The position numbers and the translations under genes were made by a program. Positions 1,841 through 32,427 of a stretch of DNA of 32,427 nt are shown here, piece by piece. Positions within the stretch are counted from its first letter, which is position 1. The number at the start of each line of letters is the position of its first letter. Source of the DNA: a virus. The notes under the pieces are model-generated. The model made no database searches. It was not told where the DNA came from and saw only the letters and a program-made list of their open reading frames with translations. The stretch spans positions 1-32,427 of the IMG/VR virus record IMGVR_UViG_3300020404_002628; one strand, written 5' to 3'.

Positions 1841-1845
1841 CCTAA

Positions 1846-9814: not shown

Positions 9815-9815
9815 A

Positions 9816-12325: not shown

Positions 12326-12999
12326 TACACTTCTTCTCCAAATACACCTGCAAATCGTAAACTCAATCCCATTTTCCAATCACAATCCATTCTACCAGTG
12401 CAATGAATATGTTTGCTATCAAAAATAATTAAACTACCAGGTGTAAAATCAACAGCAATACCAGATAAATTTTTAAACAATAATCTATCTCTGCCACGTG
12501 CTTCTAAACAACTTGTAAACATTTCTTCATCTATTTCAAGATTTGTTTTATTTTCTACTATGCTGTCTTTGAAAGGAAACCTACGTTTTTTATTATGTTC
12601 AAACTCTGGTGCAGCAGCATACCATTTGCCCATCCAAGTTGCACCACTGCTAAAATCATTTATATACTGATCAAATATGCAAAACTTTTGTTCTAAATCA
12701 TTGTGTACTTTTAACGGAATAAGAACATTAAAACAAGGATAACCAACACTTGTATCACAATGTGGAAAATATGGATCGTTGTGTTTGTATATATTATCTC
12801 CTATATTTTCTAAATTAGTGTCAAAGTAATTTGATAAAACAGGTTTTATATTCTCTTGTACAATATCTAGGTTCCACGGATCTTCAATTTTGTACATACC
12901 ATTTGTTAAATGTGTTTCAGCAAATCTATTATCATAATATTCAATTATAGTATCTATAATATTTTGATCAAAAGCATTTTCTACAATCTTATAATGCAT
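12325..12999 (-). CDS. 2OG-Fe(II) oxygenase (prolyl-hydroxylase-like)
   Basis: 224 residues from the ATG at 12999 (MHYKIVENAF), preceded by AAAGGAAAG; the longer frame begins with a TTG at 13074 and is less credible. Iron-site motifs are YFPHCDTS with His80-x-Asp82 and FDSKHIHCTGRM with distal His199 (or His197), followed by a basic strand (GLSLRFAG). NVLIPLKV is the conserved strand after the first ligands. It overlaps the upstream radical SAM gene by 11 bp and the DHODH-like gene by one base. The substrate is unknown. Confidence 0.85.
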   Translation of the reverse strand: MHYKIVENAFDQNIIDTIIEYYDNRFAETHLTNGMYKIEDPWNLDIVQENIKPVLSNYFDTNLENIGDNIYKHNDPYFPHCDTSVGYPCFNVLIPLKVHNDLEQKFCIFDQYINDFSSGATWMGKWYAAAPEFEHNKKRRFPFKDSIVENKTNLEIDEEMFTSCLEARGRDRLLFKNLSGIAVDFTPGSLIIFDSKHIHCTGRMDCDWKMGLSLRFAGVFGEEV

Positions 13000-14110
13000 T
13001 TTCTTTCCTTTTTGGTATTTTACTATCTGCACTACTAACACAACTTTCAGTGATACAAGGCATAGGATGATCAAATAACTTAAATCCTGTTTCTATGTTG
13101 CCAAGTGGAACATCGTGACAAGAATAACTACGTTTGATACTTCCATCAGGCTCTCTAATAATAATTCCTTGATATCCTGCATTGCATTTCCATCCTTTAA
13201 ATTTGTTAAAATTAAAAGCGTTGAATCTTTCTGCTTGATCCATATACCAAGCTGTTCCTGCTTTATCTCTAAATTCCACTTGCATATGCCAAGGCACACT
13301 TGCATCTGGCATATACATCATATCTTTAGGAACTTCAAATTTAGGTTTAGGTCTACCTTTCCACTGCCTTTTACTTTCAGTGTACGCTCTTTGAGGCATT
13401 CCGTTCCATAAACGTTTTAGGTCTTCTTCTTTGTACCCTTCAACCACTTTACTAGCCGTTGGATCGGATTGCGGCTTGAGTGTGACGTTGATTCCTTGTT
13501 CGTGGAAGAACAGTGCGTTTTCCCAGTCTCTTTCGAACCAATCAGGTACCATGACCATATTAATGGTAATCTGTACATCGTGTTCTTGACACAGGATTAA
13601 TTTATCTGCAAAGTCCTGCATCTTCTCCTTTGTATTTAAGTGTTCTGTATGTAAACTGGCTGTAATACTTGCTCTATGAAAAGGTTTTGCATATTCTACA
13701 TATGTTTCAAACCACTTTACAGGTCTACTGCAATTACTTGTCATATGAATACTAGTATAATTTGTGTTTTCTACATCATTAGCCAAATGCTGTAAAATAT
13801 CCAAGTAGCCAGGATGGAAAGTAGGCTCCCCACCGCTAAGACTAAAATGATAACTATTAAATCCGTTCTCACGTGCTTGCCTTTTTATTTCATCGATTGT
13901 TCGTAAGCATAGCTCGGTAGGACGATGGTCTTTACGGTCACTACGGGCATAAGGCCAACAATAACTGCATCGGTAGTTGCAGAATCTTCCGAGGAGCCAA
14001 GATACTGTGAATATGTCACGGTACAATAAAGTACGCTGACCAACGCTAACAATATCATCAAAGGGTATTTTCGTGAAGTCATAGTTGCTCCATTTCAAGT
14101 CTTCAGTCAT
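12989..14110 (-). CDS. Radical SAM protein with C-terminal cysteine cluster
   Basis: 373 residues from the ATG at 14110; a GTG at 14125 would add five residues. The [4Fe-4S]/SAM motif is Cys44-x3-Cys48-x2-Cys51 in FCNYRCSYC, with SGGEP at 92-96 for SAM binding. The last 60 residues hold further cysteines (KGWKC, YSCHD, MPCITESC) that could bind an auxiliary cluster as in SPASM/twitch proteins. Its domain order matches the protein at 19025-20203, with the core first and extra cysteines last. Parts of the 5' half have much higher GC than neighbouring genes. A near-consensus sigma-70 promoter lies directly upstream, so it may head its own transcript. Substrate unknown. Confidence 0.9.
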   Translation of the reverse strand: MTEDLKWSNYDFTKIPFDDIVSVGQRTLLYRDIFTVSWLLGRFCNYRCSYCWPYARSDRKDHRPTELCLRTIDEIKRQARENGFNSYHFSLSGGEPTFHPGYLDILQHLANDVENTNYTSIHMTSNCSRPVKWFETYVEYAKPFHRASITASLHTEHLNTKEKMQDFADKLILCQEHDVQITINMVMVPDWFERDWENALFFHEQGINVTLKPQSDPTASKVVEGYKEEDLKRLWNGMPQRAYTESKRQWKGRPKPKFEVPKDMMYMPDASVPWHMQVEFRDKAGTAWYMDQAERFNAFNFNKFKGWKCNAGYQGIIIREPDGSIKRSYSCHDVPLGNIETGFKLFDHPMPCITESCVSSADSKIPKRKENAL

Positions 14111-14115
14111 ATTAT

Positions 14116-14144
14116 AGTATAACACTCCTTAATTTATTTGTCAA
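14116..14144 (-). promoter_or_regulatory. Sigma-70-like promoter, TTGACA-17-TATACT
   Basis: Reading the minus strand, TTGACA (14144-14139) is followed by 17 bases and TATACT (14121-14116). Five bases separate TATACT from the ATG at 14110, so transcription would start at about the A of the ATG and give a leaderless mRNA. TATAAT at 14116-14111 is an alternative -10 but would need a 22-base spacer. AAGGAG within the spacer would be upstream of transcription start. Confidence 0.6.
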
Positions 14145-15462
14145 ATATTTTTGAGTATTGTGGTGCTACATCTAGTATGCTTTGATTTCTTGTTTTATCA
14201 AGGTAATTAGTAAAATTTACAAATTCTTGTAAGTAGTCTTGTGCATAATCTTCTTTGTTGGCAAATTTTAGTATACTGTCCAAAATATTTACTGCGTTAT
14301 CCTTTGTATGTGGATCTATTTCATTGTCTTGTATAAATTTTTCTTCCCATAATTTATAATGATGAAACAGTTCCTCCTTTAGTTCTGTACTTAGCAATTT
14401 TATATTAGTTCTTTTTGGTCCGTGTGCAACGTGGTGTGTAATAATTGGTCGTTTTTTTGAACTGTTTATTTTTTTGAAACCACTTTCTTTTAACTTCCAC
14501 CACATAAATTCTGGTATATGAAAAACGTTGTATGCAGTAACAGTACAAGCAAGCCAAGCAAATATATTTTTATTTTCAACACATATGTCATCTAGTTTTT
14601 GTAAATTTTTGTAAGCACTCTTCCATTTCAAAGGCCAACGTTGGTATTCAACCATATCACCAAAACCGTCAATACTTGCACCTACTCTAACTTGCCTAAA
14701 ATGTTTCCACATTGCTAATACACGAGGAGGTAATGCTGTCATATTTGTATTGTATTCTATAATAATTTTTTTAGCATAGCCACTATCAATACATTTTTGC
14801 AAAAATTCATAGTGCCTTTCTATCATCATTGGCTCACCGCCTGCCATATAAACGTGTCTTATGTTTGGAATATTTTGTTCTATGCTATCCCAAAAAACAT
14901 TGCTGCCGTGCCAATCATAATCATTTGTAAATAACCTACCTTTTGCATTACGTTGTAATGTTACAGTACCGTGTGTATCAATGTAATCATTTGTTTTATG
15001 ATAATCTACCCATTGTTCAAACCAAGTGTGACTATCTGTTGGACCACACATTCTACACGCAAGATTACATAAATTTCCAAAACGCAAATCATAATATGTT
15101 ACAGGAATATCATTTACATTGCCGTCTTCGTCTGTTACATCTCTTGCTTTGTCAATAGTAAATGTAGGCCAATTTTGCTGTTCGTATTGGCGTCTGCTGT
15201 TAAGCCCTGCTTCTTCTTCTTGTTGACATCTGCCGCACTCTTGACTCCAAATACCTTCAAGCATATTTTTCCTTACAGCTTTCATAAGGTCTGCATTACG
15301 TGCATCCTCTAAAGAATCACGTTGTGCGTTGTAGGGTGTGCCGTCAGTGTGTCGAATAACTCCTTGGTTTTGTGTTACGTTTGCTTGACAGCAAATTCGT
15401 ATATCTCCATTGTTTCGAACAGCCTGGAAGTTCCAAGGAATTGGACAGAAGGTGTCTTTCAT
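14134..15462 (-). CDS. Radical SAM protein with N-terminal twitch-like cysteine domain
   Basis: 442 residues. It begins with FCPIPW, then IRICC and ECGRC: Cys6, Cys24, Cys25, Cys76 and Cys79, a SPASM/twitch-like set placed before the core. The core has Cys132-x3-Cys136-x2-Cys139 in LCNLACRMC and MAGGEP at 207-211. The long C-terminal half (to IFDK) finishes the barrel. It belongs to the same subfamily as the genes at 22271-23683 (closest), 17282-18487, 21010-22284 and 31217-32427. The start lies 19 bases after the nitroreductase stop. Relatives in other systems modify peptides or sugars; its substrate is unknown. Confidence 0.9.
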   Translation of the reverse strand: MKDTFCPIPWNFQAVRNNGDIRICCQANVTQNQGVIRHTDGTPYNAQRDSLEDARNADLMKAVRKNMLEGIWSQECGRCQQEEEAGLNSRRQYEQQNWPTFTIDKARDVTDEDGNVNDIPVTYYDLRFGNLCNLACRMCGPTDSHTWFEQWVDYHKTNDYIDTHGTVTLQRNAKGRLFTNDYDWHGSNVFWDSIEQNIPNIRHVYMAGGEPMMIERHYEFLQKCIDSGYAKKIIIEYNTNMTALPPRVLAMWKHFRQVRVGASIDGFGDMVEYQRWPLKWKSAYKNLQKLDDICVENKNIFAWLACTVTAYNVFHIPEFMWWKLKESGFKKINSSKKRPIITHHVAHGPKRTNIKLLSTELKEELFHHYKLWEEKFIQDNEIDPHTKDNAVNILDSILKFANKEDYAQDYLQEFVNFTNYLDKTRNQSILDVAPQYSKIFDK

Positions 15463-15481
15463 CTATTATTTAATAGAAATA

Positions 15482-16132
15482 TTAGTAATGCTTTTTAACT
15501 TTGATCTTCTGTTTTGGCTTTGTTGGAAACATAAAACCAGTTTCGTGATGTTCTCTTCTATTACGAGTAGCATCTTTGTAACCTATTCCCATCATTAGCA
15601 AAACAGGACCATCTAAATTTAAAAGTTCTGCAATAGCATCACCATCGAAGCAAGCACAACAACCAGTACCATAGCCCATCATAGCACTAGTAACATTTGC
15701 ATATCCTGCTGCGATACCCACAGCCATTTGCTGATCTCTTTTAAATGTTTCTTGCTCTGCTTCGGAAAGTTCTTTTCCTAAATCCATCTTCAATATTTCG
15801 TCATTTCTAAATACTTTTTTATCTCTATTTAGATGTCCGTTATATGCCTCAAAAACAATTAACAAATTAGCTAAAGTTTGGCTGTTTGTTTCGCCTTCCA
15901 TTGTAACAAAGTTGGTTGTGAAACCTTCTGTTTTACTGTGGATTGCTTCTATTAAGTTTCTATCGGTAATCATATGTGCTTTGTAAAATGCAACATTTTG
16001 TTTGCTAGGACATTGCGTTATAGCGTGTTGAATTAGATCTAAATCTTCTTCAGGTATTTGCTTTGACAAATCCCAATTACGCTGACAGTGCTGGCTTCTA
16101 ATGACTGCTTTTTCAATTTGTTTATGATCCAT
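15482..16132 (-). CDS. Nitroreductase-family flavoprotein
   Basis: 216 residues from the ATG at 16132 (MDHKQIEKAV), chosen because AGGAG sits seven bases upstream; the longer frame starts with a TTG at 16165. Family features are the N-terminal FMN-phosphate region RSQHCQRNWD, ITQCPSKQN (the usual substrate-side loop), the helix GIAAGYANVTSAMMGYGTGCCAC, and the closing strand VLLMMGIGYKDATRNRR. Such enzymes use NAD(P)H and FMN to reduce nitro, quinone or enoyl-like groups, or in peptide-maturation clusters oxidise azolines. It is the first gene after a NATAAATA motif. Confidence 0.85.
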   Translation of the reverse strand: MDHKQIEKAVIRSQHCQRNWDLSKQIPEEDLDLIQHAITQCPSKQNVAFYKAHMITDRNLIEAIHSKTEGFTTNFVTMEGETNSQTLANLLIVFEAYNGHLNRDKKVFRNDEILKMDLGKELSEAEQETFKRDQQMAVGIAAGYANVTSAMMGYGTGCCACFDGDAIAELLNLDGPVLLMMGIGYKDATRNRREHHETGFMFPTKPKQKIKVKKHY

Positions 16133-16154
16133 TGTAGTCTCCTGTATACAAATG

Positions 16155-16162
16155 TATTTATT
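16155..16162 (-). promoter_or_regulatory. NATAAATA late-promoter-like motif
   Basis: AATAAATA on the minus strand, in the context GAATAAATACATTTGTA, lies 22 bases upstream of the ATG at 16132 with AGGAG between. The core and flank match the motif before the fibre gene at 29202. T4-like cyanophage late promoters are described as NATAAATA. Confidence 0.5.
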
Positions 16163-16758
16163 CAATTTTTATTAATTCTTATTTCCTGATACCATTCTTT
16201 TACTTCTTCAATATTTTCATACATTAAACTTAATTGTTGAGTATTTTGCTTGTAGGTTTTTTTGGTAGGATTATATTTTCCATTTACAAAAGATATTTTA
16301 TCAAGGTCTTGTAAAGTGTATCTTTCTTTGTAATTAATAAGATGTTTAGTACTTTCAAACTTTTGTATAGAATATTTTAACATATCAAAAAATTCTCTTT
16401 TATAAATTATATATTGATCGAGTTGCTTTGAAATATTAAAACTATGATAATTTGTTGTTTTAGCTGCTATACCCCAGCTTATAACTTGTCGCCAGCGATC
16501 GTTTGTTTCTGTAACTATTAATGGATTAGAAAATAACCAATCGTAAAAAGTATCTGTGTAATAGCCATATGACAAATCTGGATGAATTATTATTACAGAG
16601 TTTTCCGGAATAGATTTTATTTTATCTTCAATATTTACTTGTGCATTAGGTATTGGAGTTTTAAAATATTCTCCCAAAAATAACATATTATTTTTATTAG
16701 CAATATGCCTTGCTACAAAATGAGAACCTGTCCTCGGTTCTCCATATACGATTTGCAA
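16162..16758 (-). CDS. Sulfotransferase-like P-loop protein
   Basis: 198 residues. The N-terminus IVYGEPRTGSHFVARHI matches the 5'-phosphosulfate loop of sulfotransferases, with PRTGS at residues 8-12 directly after the first beta strand. A second conserved-looking block, VIIIHPDLSYG, and an arginine-containing helix (NDRWRQVISW) fit the later part of the fold. It would transfer sulfate from PAPS to an acceptor hydroxyl. The start is TTG at 16758, one base after the upstream stop; the next Met would delete the P-loop. It is shorter than cellular sulfotransferases (about 250-300 residues), so the acceptor side may be reduced. Confidence 0.7.
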   Translation of the reverse strand: MQIVYGEPRTGSHFVARHIANKNNMLFLGEYFKTPIPNAQVNIEDKIKSIPENSVIIIHPDLSYGYYTDTFYDWLFSNPLIVTETNDRWRQVISWGIAAKTTNYHSFNISKQLDQYIIYKREFFDMLKYSIQKFESTKHLINYKERYTLQDLDKISFVNGKYNPTKKTYKQNTQQLSLMYENIEEVKEWYQEIRINKN

Positions 16759-16759
16759 A

Positions 16760-17254: not shown

Positions 17255-17275
17255 TTTATCCTCAATAGTTTTATA

Positions 17276-17283
17276 TATTTATC
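17276..17283 (-). promoter_or_regulatory. NATAAATA late-promoter-like motif
   Basis: GATAAATA on the minus strand, followed by TATAAAAC and then GAGGATAAAATG. It sits 21 bases before the ATG at 17254 and overlaps the end of the upstream radical SAM gene. It would start a transcript for the unknown, sulfotransferase-like and nitroreductase genes. Confidence 0.45.
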
Positions 17284-18487
17284 AGAGGTTACGTAAGTAA
17301 TCTAGTTGCCCAGGTTCTAGCTGTGTATCTTCAAAGTATGGCTGAATTTCATTGAACAACCAAGGATTAAAGTCTTTCCAATGTTCATTACGTATTATGT
17401 TTATACGTGTGTCGTTGCGTAAAAACATTCCAAAGTCGCCTTCTTGTTCTAATTCTTTTATCAATAAATCGTAATGAAATTTTGCATCACCAAATTGCCT
17501 AATTTTTGTATTGGTTGCACTGACTAAATGCTTTTTTACTATATCAATACATTTTTGTTTTACTGCTTCAGGTAAATTTCTTGGCATCATCCAATTAGGT
17601 CCATCAACAATACAATTTTTTTGATTAAATTTTTCTGCAATACAAAAATCTATAAGTTGATTACACAAGTTTACATTGTATATAGATGTAACACTATGCA
17701 CTGTTGTATGATGTCTTCCGTAATCTTCTTTCATAGCAAACATATTGTTCAACGTAGTATCCCAATGACTGCCTTTCCGCAGTAAGTCATTGAATTCGCC
17801 AAACTGGTCAATGCTTACAGTCATATATACTTTTTCACAATCTTGCAGCAATTGATGTAATGTTTCATTTGGCAACAAAGTACCGTTTGTAGTAATATGT
17901 ACAACTAATTTTTCTCTATTACATTTTTGCAATAGTTTAATCATTTTTTCTTGTTCCATCAAAGGCTCGCCGCCTAAAAACTTAATAAAAGTCAAGTCGC
18001 TTACATCTGCATTTTCTATCCATTTGTTTTCAGCAATAATTCCACGCTTTTCAAACGGATAATTCATTTTCTTTGCGTCACTATACCATTGTGTACTTAA
18101 TTCTGGTCCACACATCCTACATTTATTATTACAAACATTACTGAACGTTATATCTATGTTTGTAAGTTTTGGTATTTTTCCTCTACTATCATCTGTTGGT
18201 AAGTTTAGAAAATTATACGGAGAATTAAAAATTTCTGTACGCATACTTTGTCCAGATGTTTTTTCATCTTCGTAACATTTACTACAGCCCGGTATCATTT
18301 CATCAAGTAAAACACTTTGTCTGTTTTGTTTCATAAAAGGATGTTCGAAAGGATTGTCTAAAGATAGATTTAAACCTTTAGGAACATATTCGTGTCTAAA
18401 ATAACAACACGGTATAACTTGTCCATCTGGACGAATAGCCATATGATGCATAGGTAGTAAACACCCATACTTCGGCAAGGAAGACAT
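17282..18487 (-). CDS. Radical SAM protein with N-terminal twitch-like cysteine domain
   Basis: 401 residues. Cys9 (YGCLLPMHHMAIRPDG), Cys27-Cys28 (IPCCYF) and Cys68-x2-Cys71 (PGCSKCYEDE) precede the radical SAM motif Cys119-x3-Cys123-x2-Cys126 (VCNNKCRMC); LGGEP is at 171-175. The phrase SGQSMRTE after the second cysteine pair is the subfamily counterpart of GLNSRRQ and GHNSKRM in the paralogues. It overlaps the upstream SDR stop by one base (TAATG), so the two are coupled and may act in sequence. Substrate unknown. Confidence 0.9.
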   Translation of the reverse strand: MSSLPKYGCLLPMHHMAIRPDGQVIPCCYFRHEYVPKGLNLSLDNPFEHPFMKQNRQSVLLDEMIPGCSKCYEDEKTSGQSMRTEIFNSPYNFLNLPTDDSRGKIPKLTNIDITFSNVCNNKCRMCGPELSTQWYSDAKKMNYPFEKRGIIAENKWIENADVSDLTFIKFLGGEPLMEQEKMIKLLQKCNREKLVVHITTNGTLLPNETLHQLLQDCEKVYMTVSIDQFGEFNDLLRKGSHWDTTLNNMFAMKEDYGRHHTTVHSVTSIYNVNLCNQLIDFCIAEKFNQKNCIVDGPNWMMPRNLPEAVKQKCIDIVKKHLVSATNTKIRQFGDAKFHYDLLIKELEQEGDFGMFLRNDTRINIIRNEHWKDFNPWLFNEIQPYFEDTQLEPGQLDYLRNL

Positions 18488-19041
18488 TAGCCTCTCCAGT
18501 GTTCGGGCTGCATAGGATCAATACTAATTTCATTTATACAAAGTTCTTTAGGTTGATCTATTACCCATTTTATGTAACTTGTAGCGGTGTCTATATCTAT
18601 AACAGTTCTGTTAGGATGTTTATGCTGATTATTACTTAATGTTCCAAAACTAATGTAACTTATTTTTGGTCCACTATGCCAAACACCATTTAATCCTAGT
18701 GTATTAGAATAATCTCTCAATGCTTTCTTTTCTGCATTGTACAACCAACTACCGCCTTTTTTAACACGATCGGTAGTGCTGCCAACATTAACAATATGAC
18801 ACCAATGTTTTTCTAACATACATTTATGATATACAATATTTAAAAGTGTAGTCTGATGAAATTTAAACAATGCACTACAATTAATAAACACATCGTGTTC
18901 GCATACACGTTCTGCAAGTCTTTCTTGATCTAATTTACGTGCTAAATCATATCCTGTACTTTGACTACAAAATTCTGCATCAGGATAAAGTTTGTGTAAC
19001 GCCTGTGCTATACCAGAATCTTTATTACCCGTGATTAACAT
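18487..19041 (-). CDS. Short-chain dehydrogenase/reductase (SDR)
   Basis: 184 residues starting MLITGNKDSGIAQAL, an SDR cofactor loop in the first strand. Further features are INCSA in place of NNAG (53-57), Ser88 in NVGSTTD, and Tyr101-x3-Lys105 in YNAEK. The catalytic Ser-Tyr-Lys set is therefore present. It is short for an SDR and similar in layout to the protein at 11100-11639, so the two look like old duplicates. It overlaps the upstream radical SAM gene by 17 bp and the downstream one by one base, so it is embedded between two radical SAM genes. Confidence 0.85.
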   Translation of the reverse strand: MLITGNKDSGIAQALHKLYPDAEFCSQSTGYDLARKLDQERLAERVCEHDVFINCSALFKFHQTTLLNIVYHKCMLEKHWCHIVNVGSTTDRVKKGGSWLYNAEKKALRDYSNTLGLNGVWHSGPKISYISFGTLSNNQHKHPNRTVIDIDTATSYIKWVIDQPKELCINEISIDPMQPEHWRG

Positions 19042-24774: not shown

Positions 24775-24801
24775 TATATACGTACTTTACTTAACTAAAT
24801 A

Positions 24802-24809
24802 TATTTATG
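24802..24809 (-). promoter_or_regulatory. NATAAATA late-promoter-like motif
   Basis: CATAAATA on the minus strand, within the 44-base gap between two radical SAM genes and 27 bases before the ATG at 24774. Apart from AT-rich sequence I see nothing else in this gap. Confidence 0.4.
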
Positions 24810-24818
24810 AATCTTAAA

Positions 24819-25904
24819 TTATGCAAACTGAGCTGCAAAAGGATCAAATTTAGCTCCACACTTTTCGCTACAAACTCCTAATTTGCCTTCCTTTACAGTC
24901 TTTGCATTCCAGCTATCTTCAATGCTTTTCAGTAACGGACCTTCCATAACTTTTTTCATATCATTCATAATGACATTAATGCCGCCTTTGCCTCCAGCTT
25001 CATCAATGTGAGACCATATTTGTTCTACTTTTGGATCGGCGTGCCACCATTTATACATACGTCCAGCCGTCCAACAACAAGGCATAAGCAAACCTTCGGC
25101 AGTAATAAAAATATTACCAGCATCTTTTACTTTACAATTAATTTTACACTTGTTATAATATTCAATCATACTGCCATATTGCTTTGCAATATTTTTTTGT
25201 TTGTCTAACTCTTTATTTGCAAATTGTTTTTCTTTAGGCTTTGCCAACGTTTGTGTTTTTTGTCCTTTTCGATTTATCGCTTGGTGTGTTTCTTTACCAG
25301 TCATTTTCTTAGTACTATAGAAACGTCCTGTTTTTTTCTTTATAAATTTTTCTACACCCCATTCTTTGGCAAGTTGTTCTGCTTCTTCTACTTGATGTTC
25401 GTTGTGTTGAAATATGATAAAATCCCAACGGGCTCTGCCACCTGCTGCAACAAATGCTTTCATATTAGTTTCAACTTTATCCCATTGTACGTTTTGTCTA
25501 TACAAATGATTTGTATCTTCTAGTCCGTCAACACTAAAAATTACAGCACCATTGCGTCCAAATACTTGTGCAAGTTCCATCCACCAAGGCATATCTCTAG
25601 CACCAGCATTAGTATTCATACTAAGCCACATTGTAGGATTATGCTCTCTAAAATATTTGAATATTTCAAGTGTGTCTTTTGCAACAATAGGATCTCCTAA
25701 GTTACCACACATATACATTGTTTTTAGTTGTTTGATAAAATCGGGTTTGAAAATCTTTTTTGCTTTTTGTAAAGTTATTTCAGCATTAGTAAGATGAGGA
25801 TTATCATCTCCTCCATTCATATTCCTATCGCACATAGGACAAGCGGCTTGACATTTTTGAGTAACTTCTAAATGTACTTCTTTTATGTCTTCATACTTAT
25901 ACAT
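24819..25904 (-). CDS. Radical SAM protein with Lys-rich insert and C-terminal SPASM-like region
   Basis: 361 residues. The core motif is Cys18-x3-Cys22-x2-Cys25 (KCQAACPMC), with CGNLGDP in the place of GGEP. FSVDGLEDTNHLYRQN and IIFQHNEHQVEEAE are shared with the paralogue at 23680-24774. A basic low-complexity stretch (about residues 190-245, many Lys/Gln) separates the barrel from the C-terminal cysteines: CKINCK, a further MPCC, and CSEKC. The ATG immediately follows the upstream TAA (TAAATG). Paired radical SAM paralogues could form a heterodimer or act on successive sites; this is inference. Confidence 0.9.
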   Translation of the reverse strand: MYKYEDIKEVHLEVTQKCQAACPMCDRNMNGGDDNPHLTNAEITLQKAKKIFKPDFIKQLKTMYMCGNLGDPIVAKDTLEIFKYFREHNPTMWLSMNTNAGARDMPWWMELAQVFGRNGAVIFSVDGLEDTNHLYRQNVQWDKVETNMKAFVAAGGRARWDFIIFQHNEHQVEEAEQLAKEWGVEKFIKKKTGRFYSTKKMTGKETHQAINRKGQKTQTLAKPKEKQFANKELDKQKNIAKQYGSMIEYYNKCKINCKVKDAGNIFITAEGLLMPCCWTAGRMYKWWHADPKVEQIWSHIDEAGGKGGINVIMNDMKKVMEGPLLKSIEDSWNAKTVKEGKLGVCSEKCGAKFDPFAAQFA

Positions 25905-26570
25905 TTACACATCCAAGGTTTTATCATTTATACTTTGTAGCAATTTTTTTTGTTTTTTAAGAAGACTTTCTATTTCTTGCCTATGAAAAAAATCTTGCAA
26001 CGCAGTCATTAATTGAAGTTGCGCCCAATAGTATTTACGTATATACAATGCATCATTATAAAAATTGAATATATTGATACTATCAGGATCAATTAATTTT
26101 ACTTTTAGATCTTGTGTAATTACAATATTTCCTACTCCAAAATCTCCGTGTAATACAAATTCATCATCAGATAATGTTTTACTATATTCCAACATATCTA
26201 ACCACGTTGATTGCATAGCAATCATAATTTCTAATATAGTTTCTTTTTGTATTTTTTTGTATAATCTTACATCTTTTTTTTCTATCAAATCTTTCACTGA
26301 AATTAGGATAGGTAATTTTTCCATCTCAATAGTATCAAACCAATTAGTTTGAAAAACTTGTACAAAGGAATCATTTTTGTCTGCAAGGGTTTGATACATA
26401 TCTAACCACTTACTGTTTAATGGCTGACCTTGATCTCTATTCTTACAAACCTTAATAACTCTGCAATCACATTTTGGTCCAGCGTTATTGCAACAAGGTT
26501 TACTCTTGTCAAAATACAAAGTTGAATGAGGAAATTCTTTGCAGCTATGATAATTAAATTGATCAATCAT
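25905..26570 (-). CDS. Kinase/phosphotransferase-fold protein with Cys-rich N-terminus
   Basis: 221 residues. VLHGDFGVGNIV (His141-Gly-Asp143, Asn148) and VKLIDPD (Asp161) are the catalytic loop and metal-binding motif of aminoglycoside phosphotransferase/choline-kinase-like enzymes. The usual N-lobe is short and no glycine-rich loop or ATP lysine is obvious. Instead residues 10-42 hold six cysteines (SC, PCCNN, KCDC, VC), possibly a metal site. The protein may phosphorylate a small molecule or sugar, or be a degenerate kinase. It overlaps the upstream 74-residue gene by 8 bp and abuts the next radical SAM gene. Confidence 0.72.
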   Translation of the reverse strand: MIDQFNYHSCKEFPHSTLYFDKSKPCCNNAGPKCDCRVIKVCKNRDQGQPLNSKWLDMYQTLADKNDSFVQVFQTNWFDTIEMEKLPILISVKDLIEKKDVRLYKKIQKETILEIMIAMQSTWLDMLEYSKTLSDDEFVLHGDFGVGNIVITQDLKVKLIDPDSINIFNFYNDALYIRKYYWAQLQLMTALQDFFHRQEIESLLKKQKKLLQSINDKTLDV

Positions 26571-26787
26571 CGCTTATCAACTTTACTTCTGTTCCTGGAC
26601 CTACTTTGCTAGGCAAGTCACCGTAATTATCAACATACCATTCAATCACTGCCTTGTACCACATTTGACTATTATGGTGTGCTTTTTTGTTGAACATATG
26701 TATATTGTTGTTTGTGGCTTGCATAGTGCTAAGAGCTCTTGCACTTTCAGTTTGCAATTGTCTTAGTGTAAGTTCATTTATATCCAA
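26563..26787 (-). CDS. Small protein of unknown function (74 aa)
   Basis: Not recognised. It begins with a Gln/Thr-rich helix-like segment (LTLRQLQTESARALST), has a His-containing middle (KKAHHNSQMWYKAVIEW) and ends VGPGTEVKLISDD, with no cysteine. The start is most likely TTG at 26787, with AAAAGG upstream, overlapping the methyltransferase gene by 14 bp; the first internal Met is residue 22. Overlap at both ends supports translation. It could be an adaptor, chaperone or substrate for neighbouring enzymes. Confidence 0.6.
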   Translation of the reverse strand: MDINELTLRQLQTESARALSTMQATNNNIHMFNKKAHHNSQMWYKAVIEWYVDNYGDLPSKVGPGTEVKLISDD

Positions 26788-27817
26788 TTTTCATAAACCT
26801 TTTGTATTTAGGCAATTGTAGTTCGCCTTCATATAACACTGTTGTCATTGGAGATTTATCGCTAAATTCTTCTAGTGTTTTACTGCAATTCACGTGTTCT
26901 TCTATTTCAAAATAATCATTTCCTTGAACAACTATAAATTTATCGTCGGGTATTTTATTATACCAAGTATTGTAATTATCAATATGTTCAGTGCTGGTAT
27001 TTATTATTGTATCAGGAGTATCCCATAATCTTTCAAAATCGCTGCCACCTTTTTTTGCAACAATATAACAATGCTCTTCAAAATTTATATCGTGTATGTC
27101 TTGTATCACAGGCTTGAATTTCCATCCATTTATTACCCAATGTTTATTGAATATTTCTGCTATTTTTTCAGTGCTTTCATCTACATCAAAACTTCTAACT
27201 TTTTCTAATGTCAACCCTGATTCAAATAACATTACTGCTAGTGTACCGTACCATCCTGCACAAAGAAATACAGTGCCAAGATCAATACCAATATTTTTTA
27301 GTTCACGTATTACCCATAACTTACTTTCAAGTTGTCCTCTACTAAAACAATCTTCATCAAACGGAATATCTTCTTTTATCATAGTTTTAAAAGCATACAC
27401 AAAATGTGTGTCTACATAAGATTGTATTATTCTCCACAAACTAAAAACATTATCATTTAGGATAAGTCCTTTGAGATCTTCATCATCGATAAGTCTAAAA
27501 ATACTGTGCAAGTTATCTTCAAGCACTGCTTTTCGTAAATCATCATTACCTGGTAACAATCTAAACAAAGCGTGTAGGTTATGTTCTAATACTGCTTTGC
27601 GTAAATCTTCTATTTCACCAACTGTTCTTTTGTTATCAACGCATCTAAAAACACTGTTTATATTTTTTTCTACTACTGCTTTTCGCAGTTCTTCCTTATC
27701 GATTAAACGAAATAAACTTAGCACATCACGATCAATGTATGCACGTCTTAGATTTGCAAAACGTTCATCATCAGGATAAAGAACTTCAAATCTATCTAAT
27801 AATTTATATATGTCCAT
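26774..27817 (-). CDS. Repeat protein fused to a SAM-dependent methyltransferase-like domain
   Basis: 347 residues from the ATG at 27817; a TTG three bases earlier is less likely. Residues 23-132 consist of five 18-residue units of the form LRKAVLEDNLHSIFRLID, presumably helical hairpins for protein contact. Residues about 165-347 look like a class I methyltransferase: VFLCAGWYGTLAVMLF as the SAM loop (183 onward), FDVDES as the acidic second motif (210-215), and a later DTIINTSTEHI strand. It overlaps the upstream glycosyltransferase-like gene by 14 bp. The target is unknown. Confidence 0.78.
   Translation of the reverse strand: MDIYKLLDRFEVLYPDDERFANLRRAYIDRDVLSLFRLIDKEELRKAVVEKNINSVFRCVDNKRTVGEIEDLRKAVLEHNLHALFRLLPGNDDLRKAVLEDNLHSIFRLIDDEDLKGLILNDNVFSLWRIIQSYVDTHFVYAFKTMIKEDIPFDEDCFSRGQLESKLWVIRELKNIGIDLGTVFLCAGWYGTLAVMLFESGLTLEKVRSFDVDESTEKIAEIFNKHWVINGWKFKPVIQDIHDINFEEHCYIVAKKGGSDFERLWDTPDTIINTSTEHIDNYNTWYNKIPDDKFIVVQGNDYFEIEEHVNCSKTLEEFSDKSPMTTVLYEGELQLPKYKRFMKIGYK
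27425..27751 (-). repeat. Five 18-residue protein repeats, coding
   Basis: The N-terminal region of the methyltransferase-like protein repeats LR(K/R)A..(E/D).N..S(L/V/I)FR(L/C)(I/V)D at residues 23-40, 44-61, 72-89, 94-111 and 115-132. Units 3 and 4 are closest, with LRKAVLE shared exactly; unit 5 is the most diverged. Confidence 0.8.
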
Positions 27818-29135
27818 CAAATTTTTCTCTTAACCAATCAAAGTCATTGATTAACTTCAACGCATCTATGTTGCCTTTATTAGCAGCTCCGTACATAGTT
27901 CCTTCTTTTGCACCTTTGATTGCATATTCTCCATAAGGCTTATCCTTGCCAACACTGCTCCAAATTTTCAAGCGTGTATCAGTTTCGGCTTCTTTTTGTC
28001 TATCAATTACTTTACTACTTAGCTTACAACATTCTCTGAATGCACTTTTCCAAGTTTCAAATTCGCCAGTGTTAAATGCAGTAATATTTGATATTTGTTG
28101 TATTGCCCTAAACTTATCACTAATGCTAGTTGTCATATCAGGTTTACTAGTATCCATAGTAAGTGTAAGTTCTCTTGGAAATAATTTTACTCCACCATAA
28201 CCATACACAAGTCCATTGATAGGATTTCTACTACGCCATACGTGTACGTGGTCCCATTGCCAAACAGGAACTTGATAATCAAAATTAAAATCTTCAACTA
28301 TATCAGCATCGCCATCTATAATCCAAAACATTGGAGTTGTGCATATTTTTGCACCCTCTATATGAGCTTGATGTATTCCTTTTACTCCGTGTATTCTTTT
28401 GCATTGAGGAAAGCGTTTTAGTATGCGATTATAGTTTTCATCAGCATTAGGTTCTTGATAACTTATAAAAACAATGTCATATGGTTTAGGTTTGCTTACA
28501 ATTTTGTTATGTTCTTTTTTGTGTGCAATAAACATAAACTTCCATTCTCTTGCACTAATTTTTGATTTCTTACTGCATAATATAACACCGTCGTGGTGTT
28601 CACCATTTAGGAATACGTGATTTATTTTTCTATCAAAAGAATTATGATGAGTAAAGTATGTGTCAAATTCAAAATCATCTAACAACTCTATAGTAGGTGG
28701 AACTACCCAAAACATATCTGTCTTTGCTGTAACTAATGCATTTGCATAATCTTCATATGTATCTGTATAAAAAATATCATACTTTGTTGGCATACTTGCT
28801 ACAATATTAACTTCTTTAGTGTTAACAAAAAATCTATGATCAACTTCTTTTTGTGACACTTGTGCATTTTTTGGTATCAACGAAATACCATCGTATTCGT
28901 CATTGTTTAGAAAAACGTGTATATAGTCTTGGCTCCATTCATCAGGAACATAATCAAATAAGAAGTTTTCTTTTATTTCTAAGTCTGGATATACGACCCA
29001 CAAAAATTTTGTAATACAAGTACGTTGTGCTTGTTCTATTGTTTTTACACATTTGACTGTAGGAATACTTTTCTTAAGTCGTTTGTAATCTTCTTCAAAC
29101 AAACTTTTATCGGCAATTAAAAATACATCATACAT
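27804..29135 (-). CDS. Triplicated glycosyltransferase-like protein
   Basis: 443 residues made of three successive versions of one module (about residues 2-115, 119-217 and 219-330) and a C-terminal tail. Each has YD(V/I)F at its start, a TKFLWVVYP / TDMFWVVPP / TPMFWIIDG strand, an F.FDY block and an HVFLN / HVFLN / HVHVW strand followed by DG or NG. Only the third keeps an acidic DGDAD motif (274-278), the DxD metal site expected of GT-A glycosyltransferases; modules 1 and 2 read YPDLE and PPTIE. One active and two binding modules is the simplest reading. It is the first gene of the leftward block, with a consensus promoter directly at its start. Confidence 0.7.
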   Translation of the reverse strand: MYDVFLIADKSLFEEDYKRLKKSIPTVKCVKTIEQAQRTCITKFLWVVYPDLEIKENFLFDYVPDEWSQDYIHVFLNNDEYDGISLIPKNAQVSQKEVDHRFFVNTKEVNIVASMPTKYDIFYTDTYEDYANALVTAKTDMFWVVPPTIELLDDFEFDTYFTHHNSFDRKINHVFLNGEHHDGVILCSKKSKISAREWKFMFIAHKKEHNKIVSKPKPYDIVFISYQEPNADENYNRILKRFPQCKRIHGVKGIHQAHIEGAKICTTPMFWIIDGDADIVEDFNFDYQVPVWQWDHVHVWRSRNPINGLVYGYGGVKLFPRELTLTMDTSKPDMTTSISDKFRAIQQISNITAFNTGEFETWKSAFRECCKLSSKVIDRQKEAETDTRLKIWSSVGKDKPYGEYAIKGAKEGTMYGAANKGNIDALKLINDFDWLREKFDGHI

Positions 29136-29141
29136 ACACTA

Positions 29142-29170
29142 ATTATACTAAAAAAATCCATTCTTGTCAA
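29142..29170 (-). promoter_or_regulatory. Consensus sigma-70 promoter, TTGACA-17-TATAAT
   Basis: On the minus strand TTGACA (29170-29165) and TATAAT (29147-29142) are both perfect and separated by 17 bases. The ATG at 29135 begins seven bases after the -10, about where transcription should start, so the mRNA would be leaderless or nearly so. It is the apparent main promoter for the 25-kb leftward gene block and needs only host RNA polymerase. Confidence 0.75.
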
Positions 29171-29176
29171 TATTAG

Positions 29177-29184
29177 AATAAATA
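29177..29184 (+). promoter_or_regulatory. NATAAATA late-promoter-like motif
   Basis: AATAAATA, in context AGAATAAATACATTGTAGGAG, lies 17 bases before the fibre ATG at 29202. The 66-base gap between the divergent genes therefore seems to hold a sigma-70-type promoter to the left and a late-type promoter to the right. Confidence 0.55.
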
Positions 29185-29190
29185 CATTGT

Positions 29191-29195
29191 AGGAG
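29191..29195 (+). promoter_or_regulatory. Shine-Dalgarno AGGAG
   Basis: AGGAG six bases before the ATG at 29202 fixes the start of the fibre gene. It contrasts with the leaderless start of the divergent gene. Confidence 0.75.
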
Positions 29196-29201
29196 AAAAA
29201 T

Positions 29202-30644
29202 ATGACTGATTTTATACCTGGCGATTCGTATCGAATAGATATTGTAGGTGCTGATAGTACTTTAATTATAGATAGTTGGCTAAGCCACATAAAAGCAAAT
29301 GTTGTTAACAAAGACGGCATAGTGCAAGTTGACACAACATTTGGTAAACTATACGGACCTATGGTAGGTAATGTTGAAAATGAAGAAGGCGATGTATTAA
29401 TTAATGCAGCAAGTCGCACTGTTCATATGGACGTTGTAGGAAATGTTAAAGACAACGCAAATAACGTTATATTAGATGCTGCACGTAGTTTAATCAAAGG
29501 TAATTTCGAAGGCAATATTGTAAATTCTGCTGGGGATATGATTTATGATGCTGTTACAAAAACATTAGTTGTTGACAGAATTGTAGGTGATACATATGGA
29601 AAACACCACGGTGAAGTAGACTTAGTGGGTAATGTAAATGGTACATTTATGGGTAACCTAATAGGTCCAAGTAATGGTGTACATTCAGGAACTGTTTTAG
29701 GAGATGTAACAGGTAACTTGAAAGGTAATATTGTTTATGAGAACGGTGACATTATTGTTGACGGATCAAACGGAACAGTTAACGGAAATTTAAAAGGCGG
29801 AATACTAACACCTGATGACGAACACGTATTGACTTGGAATGACACTTTAAAACATCACGTGTTAAGAGCAGGACTTGAACATCCAGATTCAAAAAGTGCT
29901 GTGCTTAAACTTGGAGACACTGACAGAGAAACAATGTACAAAGGTAACATTGCATACTGGGACGATTCTCCTGTACTTACTTTGCTTGATTGGGAAGGCA
30001 CAGATAAACCAAGTGTGCTTGCAGAGTATAGAGGTAGTGTAATTGGCGAAGTATTTGATGAAACTAAAGCACCGGTGCTTACTGTAAATGAAGGACAAGT
30101 AAGACTAGAAGGCGGCGCAACAGGCGAAATTAATATTGGTTACAATAGTACAGAAACATTACAAGTATATGCTGACAATATAAGTTTTAAACTACAATCA
30201 AATCCAGTTAACACTTCTAACTTAGGACAAGTTAATTATTTTGCTTTTAACGGTGATCACGAAAATATGCTTCCACTAAACCCTGGAGATCATATGATGG
30301 TAAACACTGTACACGCTTGGGACGGATTGGCATATAAAATTGGAGGTGGCTTTGGTTTTTATGTAAACACAGACGTAACACCAGATCCAGACTTAGAAAT
30401 ATATCCAACAGATTTTGCAATTACGTTGAGCGATGGAAAAAATTTACCTAGTGCATTTTGGGATAATCCAACTGGCTTAAATTTTGACGGTAGAGGTGTT
30501 TTATCAGTACCAATTATGAAGTCAAAAGGATTTACAGAAGCAGACTTAACAGATGTAGATGGCGAAGAAGGTATGATTATATTCAATAAATCAACTAAAA
30601 AGTTCCAAGGTTACAACGGCACTAGTTGGGTTGATTTAGGATAG
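29202..30644 (+). CDS. Tail-fibre/virion structural protein
   Basis: 480 residues. The first 200 consist of short repeats of the type GNV...GDVI(V/L)DA...V.GN, rich in Gly, Asn and Asp, related to the DDSTVLVDG repeats of the fibre at 1-1836. The middle is more globular. The C-terminus reads GMIIFNKSTKKFQGY and SWVDLG, matching the end of the first fibre (MVYNTTTNKFQGY, WVDLH); this may be a shared trimer tip or attachment element. It is the only + strand gene in this part, with its own late-type promoter, and its 3' end overlaps the opposing gene by 23 bp. A virion role is inferred from repeat style. Confidence 0.82.
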   Translation: MTDFIPGDSYRIDIVGADSTLIIDSWLSHIKANVVNKDGIVQVDTTFGKLYGPMVGNVENEEGDVLINAASRTVHMDVVGNVKDNANNVILDAARSLIKGNFEGNIVNSAGDMIYDAVTKTLVVDRIVGDTYGKHHGEVDLVGNVNGTFMGNLIGPSNGVHSGTVLGDVTGNLKGNIVYENGDIIVDGSNGTVNGNLKGGILTPDDEHVLTWNDTLKHHVLRAGLEHPDSKSAVLKLGDTDRETMYKGNIAYWDDSPVLTLLDWEGTDKPSVLAEYRGSVIGEVFDETKAPVLTVNEGQVRLEGGATGEINIGYNSTETLQVYADNISFKLQSNPVNTSNLGQVNYFAFNGDHENMLPLNPGDHMMVNTVHAWDGLAYKIGGGFGFYVNTDVTPDPDLEIYPTDFAITLSDGKNLPSAFWDNPTGLNFDGRGVLSVPIMKSKGFTEADLTDVDGEEGMIIFNKSTKKFQGYNGTSWVDLG

Positions 30645-31224
30645 GTATAACTTCCTCTGCTTCAGGCCATCTAGACAAAGATAAAGTTTCATAAAATTTA
30701 TCAACATTAATTTTCCAAAAAGTTTGGAATGTACCTTTGTATTCAAGTTCTAATGGATTTTGTAGAACACCTGCTTTATGAAAATACTTTGCCCAAAAAT
30801 TATGTACTTTGTTTTGGCTACCAACATCACCAGTATGTGTGCTAAGATACAAGGGTTTATCTCTGCCAACACCTTCTATACAAGCAGGCAATAAAAATTG
30901 CGAAGCGTGTGAATAGTGAATATCAGTTTTACCTTTCAGACTTTTTACTCTATCTTTTCCTATTAGATGAGTTAACACACAAGTTCTTGCACCTATTCTG
31001 TAAGCATCTTTTCCTAATATTCCAAGTTCTTCTAACTTATGTGCTACTACTGTACCAACAACATTATTATTATGTAATAACAACCAAAGTTTAGCATCTT
31101 CATATTTTTTAATATAATCAATAAGCATTTCTTGACTGCTATTATTATAGAACTTTTTCTTGTGTGCTTCTATAAAAAATTCAGTTAAATCTATATCATT
31201 ATTGTATAATTTTATTTCAAACAT
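30622..31224 (-). CDS. Possible GNAT-like acetyltransferase
   Basis: 200 residues from the ATG at 31224 (MFEIKLYNND), which overlaps the upstream radical SAM stop by 8 bp as ATGTTTGA; a longer frame to 31272 runs inside that gene. LWLLLHNNNVVGTVVAHKLEELG has the strand-turn-strand of GNAT proteins, followed by an Arg-containing region (YRIGARTCVLTHL) and LYLSTHTGDVGSQNKVHNFWAKYFHKAG, which resembles the final GNAT helix with an N..A...Y/F pattern. The exact acceptor is unknown. The motif match is moderate; a hypothetical label would also be fair. Confidence 0.65.
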   Translation of the reverse strand: MFEIKLYNNDIDLTEFFIEAHKKKFYNNSSQEMLIDYIKKYEDAKLWLLLHNNNVVGTVVAHKLEELGILGKDAYRIGARTCVLTHLIGKDRVKSLKGKTDIHYSHASQFLLPACIEGVGRDKPLYLSTHTGDVGSQNKVHNFWAKYFHKAGVLQNPLELEYKGTFQTFWKINVDKFYETLSLSRWPEAEEVIPILNQPN

Positions 31225-32427
31225 ATGTTTCGCATAAATCAAAAAATTCTGCCATTTCTGGAAAAACTTCAATATGATTTACTCCACGTCTTCTATTTTG
31301 TTCTTTAAAAAATTTGTGGAAGTCCTGACGTCCTTGTATAACTTTTTCTAATGGATATTCAGTTCTTTCCATATAATCTACAACACGTCTAAACTTTTCA
31401 TATTCTAATGTACTAAATGCATCTTTGCGTTCATCGTCAACATTTTCTTTTATAAACTGCAAATGATCACGCATATAACTTAAATATTCTTTGGGCAATA
31501 TATTCATATCGTATTGCAGTGGTTCTTTTAAGTGCGGTGTATCAAAACCTAACCGCTGCCATCTATGTGTTTCTACGTCATTATACTTGCCACGCCATTC
31601 TAATATTTTTTCTAGTAATGTTCTAAATGTAGTTACACTAAAAATATTAAATGTAATCATTAGCACCATTGGTGCATCACAGTTACGCATAAAATAATCT
31701 AAGTTACGTTCAAACACTTCAATATCTAATCCGTCACGAATATATTCTGCACGTTTACCCCAAGTATCAATACTTGTAAACATTTTAAAACGTCTTATTT
31801 TATTATTTGTTAATAAATGATTTACACGGTCGGTAAACTTTGCAAGTTGTTTTGGCTTACCTCCTAAGTTACTATTACAGTTAAGTTCTAGTTCTGGTTT
31901 TGGATCTGCATCAAGCATATCAAATAGTCTGTATGTGCTTTGCTGTATTGTAGGTTCACCACCAGTAATACGAAGAATATGTAATTCTTTACTAAGCTCT
32001 GGCCACCATTTCCAAAAAGCATCTAAATAAGGATTGTTTTCTTCTTGATATATTTTAAACCAATCAATATCACATCTATGATTTTGAACCATATCATATG
32101 GACCGTGCTGTTTTATTTCTTGATAAAATCTACTGCTGGCTTTTGGATGACAGTATCCGCAACGGAAGTTACACTCATTACCAAAACTAACTTCTAAGTA
32201 TTCTGGATTTACATCAAACTCTGCGCCACCTTCTTTTACTGCTTTTAGTCTATGTTTAAAGAAAATAGTTTGATTACGTTGCTTTCTGTCACTAACGTAA
32301 TCTTTACCCATTGCTTCAATCTTCCAGCAATAGTTACAACCAGCAGGTTGCTCGCCACGCATCATAGCGGCACGTTCTTTTTTCTTTTGTGCTGTGTTGT
32401 GTATAGCACTTGGATTTTCTAGTAAGG
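31217..32427 (-). CDS. Radical SAM protein, N-terminus outside the window
   Basis: The frame is open to the last base of the window, so the ATG at 32365 is probably internal and the start is missing. The visible part has AGCNYCWKIEAMG, the second cysteine pair of the N-terminal twitch-like domain, preceded by ERAAMMRGEQP as in the paralogues; the FCxxPW and CC elements would lie beyond the window. The core motif is ECNFRCGYC, with ITGGEPT for SAM. The ending VFPEMAEFFD closely resembles the ending VFPEMKDIFD of the protein at 22271-23683, marking both as one subfamily. It precedes and overlaps the acetyltransferase-like gene. Substrate unknown. Confidence 0.9.
   Translation of the reverse strand, partial: LLENPSAIHNTAQKKKERAAMMRGEQPAGCNYCWKIEAMGKDYVSDRKQRNQTIFFKHRLKAVKEGGAEFDVNPEYLEVSFGNECNFRCGYCHPKASSRFYQEIKQHGPYDMVQNHRCDIDWFKIYQEENNPYLDAFWKWWPELSKELHILRITGGEPTIQQSTYRLFDMLDADPKPELELNCNSNLGGKPKQLAKFTDRVNHLLTNNKIRRFKMFTSIDTWGKRAEYIRDGLDIEVFERNLDYFMRNCDAPMVLMITFNIFSVTTFRTLLEKILEWRGKYNDVETHRWQRLGFDTPHLKEPLQYDMNILPKEYLSYMRDHLQFIKENVDDERKDAFSTLEYEKFRRVVDYMERTEYPLEKVIQGRQDFHKFFKEQNRRRGVNHIEVFPEMAEFFDLCETYV

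Follow-up and report, generated by a model that had tools for sequence, protein, structure and literature searches.

Phages with about a dozen radical S-adenosylmethionine (rSAM) genes are already known. The Campylobacter T4-like phages CP220 and CPt10 are described as carrying 11 and 12 rSAM genes together with a five-gene rSAM module that includes an amidinotransferase and is regarded as interchangeable and likely non-essential (Timms 2010, PMC2853527). Two further reports describe 12 rSAM genes in the 183-kb marine T4-like genome TARA_ERS488813_N000010 (Nishimura 2017, PMC5332604), and rSAM gene cassettes in a host-recognition island of pelagimyophages that is tied to lipopolysaccharide (LPS) genes (Zaragoza-Solas 2020, PMC7029224). 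Of two other papers, one finds rSAM genes to be prevalent among viral contigs from the Tasman Sea (PMC7150976), and the other discusses the ahbD-type rSAM calls made for Baltic viruses but regards them as speculative (PMC9301287). The present work concerns nine rSAM genes in the IMG/VR virus record IMGVR_UViG_3300020404_002628, which was analysed over its whole length of 32,427 nucleotides (hereafter, the window). A preliminary description had seen in them a multi-step radical pathway with no described phage counterpart; the phages named above supply such counterparts. Genomes of this kind have been in print since 2010, and we know of no demonstrated function for their rSAM genes. The window and its relatives make function testable, since they offer a defined conserved core, a small protein that is likewise conserved, homologues in cells and promoters from which timing can be predicted. 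We read the locus as an early-expressed island for C-H modification, which putatively tailors a glycan or a similar surface component of the host or virion, and hold this reading at a little less than an even chance.

All nine rSAM genes lie within 19.4 kb on the minus strand as open reading frames (ORFs), and each encodes one CX3CX2C motif; when the residues of the nine proteins were shuffled, a mean of 0.059 of nine genes had the motif. GGE is present in seven of the nine, and LGDP stands in its place in 23680 and 24819 (genes are named by their lower coordinate in the window). PF04055 matched eight of the proteins in a whole-protein Pfam scan (E<=1e-3; six above the curated cut-off, 23680 without a match) and all nine in a six-frame search of the window (six above cut-off, weakest E 1.7e-5). 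The cluster cysteines are near-invariant in family alignments of up to 80 members each, where the reference for the 24819 family is a fragment showing the C-terminal cysteines only. Chance or artefact was rejected on this motif and profile support and because most of the window is syntenic with a 136,876-base related record, G001, in which the nine rSAM orthologues are 82-95% identical. Motif and profile evidence thus identifies the nine as genuine rSAM enzymes, and the number of genes and their division into three groups are as the preliminary description had them.

Relatives were collected by scanning viral contigs with the 22271 protein. Of 187 found, the best 80 (81-100% identity of 22271) were kept as loci; of their records, 30 were searched in depth, for the most part the longest ones and probably all fragments. 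Because many loci end at contig edges, all counts of families in the 80 loci are lower bounds. Five of the nine window proteins are of the N-terminal-twitch type and exceed the curated cut-off of NF033640 (170) with scores of 203-423, all encoded on the minus strand: 22271..23683 (fam0, type A; 423 bits), 14134..15462 (fam0, type B; 367 bits), 31217..32425 (fam14; 271 bits), 17282..18487 (fam4; 236 bits; 58 of 80 loci) and 21010..22284 (fam8; 203 bits; 53 loci). As the survey anchor, 22271 occurs in 80/80 loci by selection; the family that it forms with 14134 is likewise in all 80, and a homologue at least 50% identical to 14134 in 31. Four or five near-invariant cysteines, assigned to an auxiliary cluster, lie ahead of the core in fam0, fam4 and fam8, and 31217 shows two N-terminal cysteines of this kind. 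Two proteins have C-terminal cysteines, 12989..14110 (minus strand; fam11; PF04055 2.7e-16; 33/80 loci) and 19025..20206 (minus strand; fam7; PF04055 1.1e-11; 54/80 loci). The last two, 24819..25904 (minus strand; fam1) and its paralogue 23680..24774 (minus strand; phrog_21308 E 3e-14), are of the GDP-motif type with Lys-rich stretches; 24819 also has C-terminal cysteines, and 23680 has the weakest PF04055 support of the nine, namely the six-frame minimum given above. These four proteins remained below the NF033640 cut-off (24819, 54 bits; 12989, 47; 19025, 22) or, for 23680, were absent from its matches. The gene bounds of the preliminary description needed two changes, although all nine ORFs are real. 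The 12989 gene probably starts at ATG 14110 and not at GTG 14125, and 31217 runs into the contig edge; it is incomplete because the window is the whole record (402 codons, compared with 457 in the full-length G001 orthologue).

Window genes 12325-32425 recur in G001 in the same order except for 25905, together with extra genes that include one further rSAM. G001 also has matches to T4-like gp20, gp21, gp23 and gp25, and the origin of the window from a phage genome, as initially proposed, is supported. The capsid protein gp23 was found in six of the 30 records, G001 among them, and the nearest isolates of the G001 protein are jumbo phages such as Vibrio 2.275.O, Phosso and PA5oct (65-70%). A pelagimyophage identity, considered from the island layout of HTVC008M, was dropped on this capsid affinity. 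The host-recognition cluster of pelagimyophages is placed between VrlC and gp14; at 1e-5, no ORF of G001 or of the related record G022 had either of these HTVC008M proteins as its best match. The window is best explained as part of the genome of a jumbo-type T4-like phage, with a variable island adjoining fibre-like genes. This large virus of bacteria is uncultured and probably marine, the habitat being taken from the names of its relatives. Among 50,697 records of isolated phages, 22271 had two matches (22% identity), 24819 four, 26774 one and 27804 none.

Across the 30 records, PF04055 gave 5-21 matches each and NF033640 6-17 matches each at E<=1e-10. After 22271/14134, the most widespread families in the 80 loci include 24819/23680 in 79, 26774 in 75, 27804 in 65 and the 74-residue protein 26563 in 58. 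Gene order at the start of the operon is strongly conserved: 27804 is followed by 26774 in 55/55 cases and 26774 by the 74-residue protein in 56/78. Upstream of 27804 lies an opposite-strand fibre-like gene in 39/55 cases and a same-strand fam18 gene in 8/55 (families are from our own clustering, and these neighbour counts are not dereplicated). The first arrangement, together with the gp20, gp21 and gp23 matches of G001, bears out the linkage to structural genes in other contigs. In contrast to this head, downstream gene content turns over quickly as anchor identity falls, with a mean Jaccard index of 1.0 at 100% identity (2 pairs), 0.83 at 95-100% (12 pairs), 0.50 at 90-95% (45 pairs), 0.36 at 85-90% (61 pairs), 0.29 at 80-85% (32 pairs) and 0.24 at 75-80% (1 pair). 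The operon thus consists, as judged from these comparisons, of a fixed head (GT-A-fold, methyltransferase-like and 74-residue proteins, GDP-motif and type-A twitch rSAMs) and an exchangeable array. Such turnover points to a changeable toolkit behind a fixed core, and the single nine-enzyme radical pathway of the preliminary description is not upheld.

The head gene, 27804..29135 (minus strand), encodes 443 residues, and its C-terminal domain (about 215-357, with a DGD motif) is predicted to adopt a GT-A/nucleotidyltransferase-like fold. In the AF2 model (mean pLDDT 88), residues 215-357 align with B4GALNT1 at VIA Z 11.0 and rmsd 2.9 over 138 residues; the best Foldseek E is 1.6e-5, with nucleotidyltransferases matching nearly as well as GT-A structures. 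D274 and D276 are invariant across 17 alignment rows, and the protein has no sequence match in Pfam, PHROG or PDB. The next gene, 26774..27820 (minus strand; 348 residues), has a methyltransferase-like core behind N-terminal repeats, with weak homology to a 'putative methyltransferase' of phage Mosig (E 5e-6; by profile, 4e-18) but without a match in Pfam or an informative one in PDB. Sequence searches of PDB with 12989 and with the profiles of 26774 and 27804 gave nothing useful. The 74-residue protein is encoded by 26563..26787 (minus strand), which overlaps the end of gene 26774, and is a predicted three-helix bundle (pLDDT 87.5) for which Foldseek found nothing in PDB at E<=1e-3. It has 34 non-redundant homologues (mean column identity 66%), and among the loci examined is confined to phage or phage-like contigs. 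Its candidacy as precursor of a ribosomally synthesized and post-translationally modified peptide (RiPP) is weakened by the predicted fold and by an alignment with neither a variable core nor a leader-like end; this check covered the 74-residue protein alone, ORFs of the phage loci being surveyed from 55 residues up.

Sigma-70 promoters mark early, and ATAAATA elements late, transcription in T4. The operon head is preceded by a sigma-70-type promoter at 29142..29170 (minus strand; TTGACA, 17 nt, TATAAT; 12/12 hexamer match) that ends 6 nt ahead of the 29135 ATG, and a leaderless transcript would be expected. Among head-gene upstream regions divergent from the fibre-like gene, this pattern (at least 10/12) occurs in 12 of 21 distinct ones, all at 6-7 nt (30 shuffles gave a mean of 0.77 and at most 3); where the upstream gene is on the same strand, it occurs in 7/14 at other distances (shuffled mean 1.0). 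A second promoter of this type, 14116..14144 (minus strand; TTGACA, 17 nt, TATACT; 11/12), stands 5 nt before ATG 14110 with its -35 box inside the 3' end of gene 14134, and in the 12989 family 9/26 distinct members have the leaderless class. A wider count took in each gene of the window and of the 80 loci and tried all in-frame ATGs within the first 30 codons. Promoters scoring at least 11 here comprised 29 at 5-7 nt, 32 at 15-37 nt and one at 9 nt, as counts without a shuffle control; the families of 27804 and 12989 account for 22 of the 29. When only the longest start of each gene was considered, promoters of the 5-6 nt class with a score of at least 11 were restricted, in G001 and G022, to genes in or around the enzyme island. 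These promoters indicate that the enzyme operon is probably leaderless and expressed early. The divergent fibre-like gene, 29202..30644 (plus strand), is preceded by a T4-late-promoter-like element, AATAAATA, at 29177..29184 (plus strand), 17 nt ahead of the gene. ATAAATA, which we take to be a T4-type late promoter, occurs before this gene in 17/24 distinct homologous upstream regions (shuffled mean 3.5, maximum 8 in 200), at 16-18 nt from the ATG in 15 of the 17. The pattern TATAAATA has no match in the whole window (6.25 expected); the full T4 consensus is therefore absent, and the elements found are other ATAAATA forms.

From 29135 to 3777, 31 genes run on one strand (~25 kb), and 29 of the 30 junctions overlap or have gaps of at most 30 nt (largest gap, 44 nt). 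Eight of the rSAM genes are inside this run, and the ninth (31217) lies past the divergent fibre-like gene. The run also encodes desaturase-like, DHO_dh-like, nitroreductase-like and QueC-type PP-loop proteins and unknowns. Beyond what was described at the outset, the same strand holds, besides three of these protein types, five Pfam-supported 2-oxoglutarate oxygenases, packed in 7 kb of the rSAM-bearing run. They lie with the desaturase-like protein within 4220..11103 (minus strand) and comprise two of the TauD type (4220 and 6367) and three of the Asp_Arg_Hydrox type (7203, 7928 and 10501); the fatty-acid-desaturase-like protein (Pfam) is 9816. As they share one run, O2-dependent and O2-sensitive radical enzymes are co-encoded.

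Cellular homologues were sought in a collection of one genome per species (84,980 species), scanned by short conserved patterns and hence not exhaustively. The 27804 profile retained eight relatives from 40 pattern matches: three loci that are phage-like by gene content (L110-L112), four in metagenome-assembled genomes (MAGs) of Bdellovibrionota (L113-L116) and one in Mucilaginibacter galii (L117). In the class to which the genome G036 belongs, NF033640 exceeded its cut-off in 63/129 genomes, compared with 0/14 control genomes, and the 27804 profile matched in 9/129. Short sets resembling parts of the phage operon recur in these bacteria. L136 and L137 have a fam0-type rSAM, a 12989-type rSAM and a head gene in a row, L140 the last two, and L135 a head gene between the two rSAM types on the opposite strand; in L141 and L142 a head gene and a 26774 homologue are in a row. 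The 74-residue profile, searched across L110-L142, matched L111 and L112 alone. In a tree of 68 twitch proteins, which has several long branches and samples those bacterial proteins that these searches fetched, the phage 22271 group falls in a supported clade with proteins of L118, L113 and L127, whereas the 14134 group joins L118_11336 and, with less support, proteins of L115 and L114. Relatives in Bdellovibrionota accordingly exist for both twitch types, of which L118 carries one each. In L121, of a Bacteriovoracaceae MAG, a PqqD gene (RiPP recognition element type; 8557-8844) adjoins a twitch rSAM, with an ABC-2 transporter gene nearby. In L132 (contig C21 of G033, a Bdellovibrionales MAG; 11389-15800), a head-type gene and two GT8-like genes lie between rSAMs together with a homologue of a phage fam23 gene and a small protein of fam19, in a set that is near pheT- and trmD-rplS-like genes by our reading.

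How such an island might act can be sketched as follows. Host RNA polymerase would read the enzyme operon early, and the GT-A protein with its partners would act on a sugar, nucleotide sugar or glycan-like acceptor. The rSAM and 2-oxoglutarate enzymes would then modify C-H positions of the product by oxidation, epimerisation, cross-linking or decarboxylation, and the QueC-like and methyltransferase-like proteins may decorate it. The product could be placed on the envelope of the infected host, where it could block competing phages, or on virion fibres, and the array would change fast because the tailored surface structure is under diversifying selection. The predicted fold of the head protein and the promoter classes are points in favour of such a scheme. 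Others come from gene neighbourhoods: in the 129 genomes, 11 of 18 head-gene places have a listed twitch rSAM no more than 6 kb away, where about 0.3 would be expected, in seven of nine genomes, or five of seven without the seeds G033 and G036. The head-gene homologue of M. galii adjoins Wzz, Poly_export and Acyl_transf_3 genes, the twitch rSAM of L130 overlaps a GT2 gene, and L127 has GDP_Man_Dehyd and DegT genes (by reading also a dTDP-sugar isomerase and a GT2), with its rSAM set some 5 kb or more away; epimerase-like and DegT-like genes were read in L139. Among 132 proteins scanned from the 80 loci, UDPG_MGDP_dh, CTP_transf_3, FkbM, Asn_synthase and carbamoyltransferase families occur in one protein each. 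G001 has, in succession on one strand, a tail-fibre-type gene, two GT8-like genes (by reading, with no family match), a second head-type gene and an rSAM. Finally, a profile of 32 twitch proteins matched two sugar-tailoring enzymes among solved structures, cytosylglucuronate decarboxylase BlsE in its core (6e-10) and BtrN in its twitch domain (1.6e-5), and the LPS and host-recognition ties reported for the pelagimyophage island count as a precedent (PMC7029224).

Several observations weigh against glycan tailoring. The best solved match of the same twitch profile is a peptide maturase, SkfB (6e-12), and the PqqD gene beside a twitch rSAM in L121 likewise hints at peptides. No canonical nucleotide-sugar synthesis gene was recognised among the window proteins, and by our reading the copies in L118 and L123 lie amid housekeeping genes with no glycan gene seen. 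The scheme does not account for the 74-residue protein. The early timing is read from promoter sequence, and ATAAATA also precedes some island genes of the window, G001 and G022, so that some of the operon might be transcribed late. The 29202 protein has no Pfam or PHROG family and no match to the annotated tail fibres of Mosig; 'fibre-like' is a working name for this reason. Viperin was also among the solved structures matched by the twitch profile, and the best window score for the viperin family NF038283 was 42.5 bits (cut-off 180). Against PDB, 24819 matched NifB (3e-4) and one further rSAM (9e-3).

The SkfB and PqqD observations would also suit a protein substrate, with the enzymes altering side chains of the phage's own fibres, or maturing a peptide in the manner of RiPPs, a process in which the 74-residue protein would serve as substrate, carrier or adaptor. 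Most SPASM/twitch rSAMs mature peptides, oxygenases of the Asp/Arg-hydroxylase type are in the same run, the fibre-like gene is the usual divergent neighbour of the head, and L132 joins a fam23 homologue with GT8-like, head-type and rSAM genes. Yet the 74-residue protein is predicted to be folded and has no variable core or leader-like end, the enzyme operon and the fibre-like gene differ in promoter class, and the fam23 homologue of L132 was found in 1/129 genomes of the class with no visible co-travel with rSAMs (single-protein search, E<=1e-5, at which distant kin would be missed). We regard modification of protein as unlikely, and a glycan-like substrate seems, on balance, likelier than a peptide from the matches and neighbourhoods at hand.

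The enzymes might instead boost cofactor, iron-sulphur (Fe-S) or vitamin metabolism of the host during infection, a role suggested for CP220 (PMC2853527) and for the marine T4-like Fe-S genes (PMC5332604). Early promoters and the DHO_dh and nitroreductase proteins of the run would fit, but fast turnover of the array ill suits a fixed host pathway, and no cofactor family, MoaA for example, was matched above its cut-off by any window rSAM. A phage Fe-S supply was set aside, the A-type carrier PF01521 being found in 0/30 related records, likely all fragments. These points make auxiliary metabolism quite improbable. Lower still we place hypermodification of phage bases against restriction, which is hardly to be expected here. 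Phage rSAM and QueC-type enzymes do act in base modification, and 20193 has a QueC-type motif; against this, the island of G001 is flanked by structural genes and is distant from the polymerase match, and some of the bacterial homologues adjoin glycan genes. HMUDK_hel (PF18723) had no match in seven long records, where the control was also silent, so that this result says little. The link to a surface structure first proposed for the nine genes is plausible, and in the form of glycan-like tailoring of the host or virion it falls just short of an even bet.

A more specific version, which we offer as doubtful in its entirety, is a surface-remodelling system of marine jumbo phages. In it, an early leaderless operon whose GT-A/methyltransferase/rSAM head also occurs in part in relatives of predatory bacteria would feed an exchangeable array (up to 21 rSAMs per contig, and oxygenases); it would rewrite the glycan of the infected cell or coat new fibres, and the 74-residue protein, so far confined to phages, would be its carrier or organiser. 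Superinfection exclusion or the disguise of receptors would then be achieved by combinatorial radical chemistry. Should the island prove to be a kit for tailoring glycans, phages of this type would offer a large and unexplored supply of radical reactions on sugars, and they would have an unrecognised route of surface remodelling during infection.

The remaining window features include further enzymes and structural genes. Within the run, 15482..16165 (minus strand) is a nitroreductase-family flavoprotein (PF00881 3.2e-10) and 18487..19041 (minus strand) an SDR-like protein (adh_short E 8e-4, below cut-off; family in 40/80 loci). The PP-loop protein 20193..21017 (minus strand; 56/80 loci) has SGGADS followed by CE...CX2CX2C, presumably the QueC motif. 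PF06508 (QueC) matched five of 82 proteins in a mixed set (best E 2.7e-5), of which 22 are of the 20193 family and the five are not itemised; 20193 itself had no match, and no further deazaguanine-pathway gene was recognised in the window. The family has 97 members, often two per island. On the plus strand, the virion-structural-like protein 1..1836 is open at the contig start and shares a C-terminal module with the fibre-like 29202 (E 8e-6). It is followed, beside the island, by 1846..3780, in which a subtilase (PF00082 5e-29) is fused to a plastocyanin/azurin-type copper domain (PF00127) and to parts resembling a tail fibre or connector, with homologues in G001 and G022. PHROG matches in 1..3780 are phrog_19195 (virion structural), phrog_15006 (tail fibre) and phrog_677 (baseplate/fibre connector). 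Fibre identity by homology to Mosig or HTVC008M was not obtained: at E<=1e-3, three fibre-like window proteins and nine G001 genes were unmatched to eleven Mosig proteins (five of them annotated tail fibres) and the HTVC008M set, except for one G001 gene that matched gp6. The G022 homologue of 1..1836 matches one gene of the HTVC008M fibre region (46%).

In the open-licence literature, judged mostly by title and abstract, we found no description of the head module, the 74-residue protein or the promoters, none of rSAMs with tail-fibre modification, and nothing pertinent on rSAMs in jumbo phages or Bdellovibrio. Four described or catalogued systems can be compared with the locus. The Bdellovibrionota NF033640 rSAMs, for which we know of no function, resemble it in short sets that combine fam0-type twitch with 12989-type and GDP-type rSAMs and head-gene homologues; their sets are shorter, have housekeeping neighbours by our reading and, in the loci searched, lack the 74-residue protein. 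TARA_ERS488813_N000010 differs from the relatives of the window in that its genes are reported as Fe-S gene content with an A-type carrier, which was not found in the 30 records. CP220 has two nucleotide-diphospho-sugar-transferase-like genes adjoining its rSAMs, and the best profile is the GDP-motif family for three of its ORFs and the 19025 family for two. However, CP220 and CPt10 belong to another genome group with another host, and no ORF in a 49-kb stretch of CP220 had the N-terminal-twitch, 26774, 27804 or 74-residue profile as its best match (E<=1e-5). The host-recognition cluster of HTVC008M and Mosig also differs: Mosig has two CX3CX2C ORFs in the stretch (three genes are annotated as MoaA-like) compared with nine here, and those core proteins of HTVC008M that have a match in G001 reach 28-37%. 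Nevertheless, this cluster shares with the window a variable island among tail genes, in which fibre genes are followed by enzyme genes that include 2-oxoglutarate oxygenases, a nitroreductase, a desaturase and rSAM cassettes, and in Mosig also GDP-motif- and 19025-type rSAMs and a 26774-like protein.

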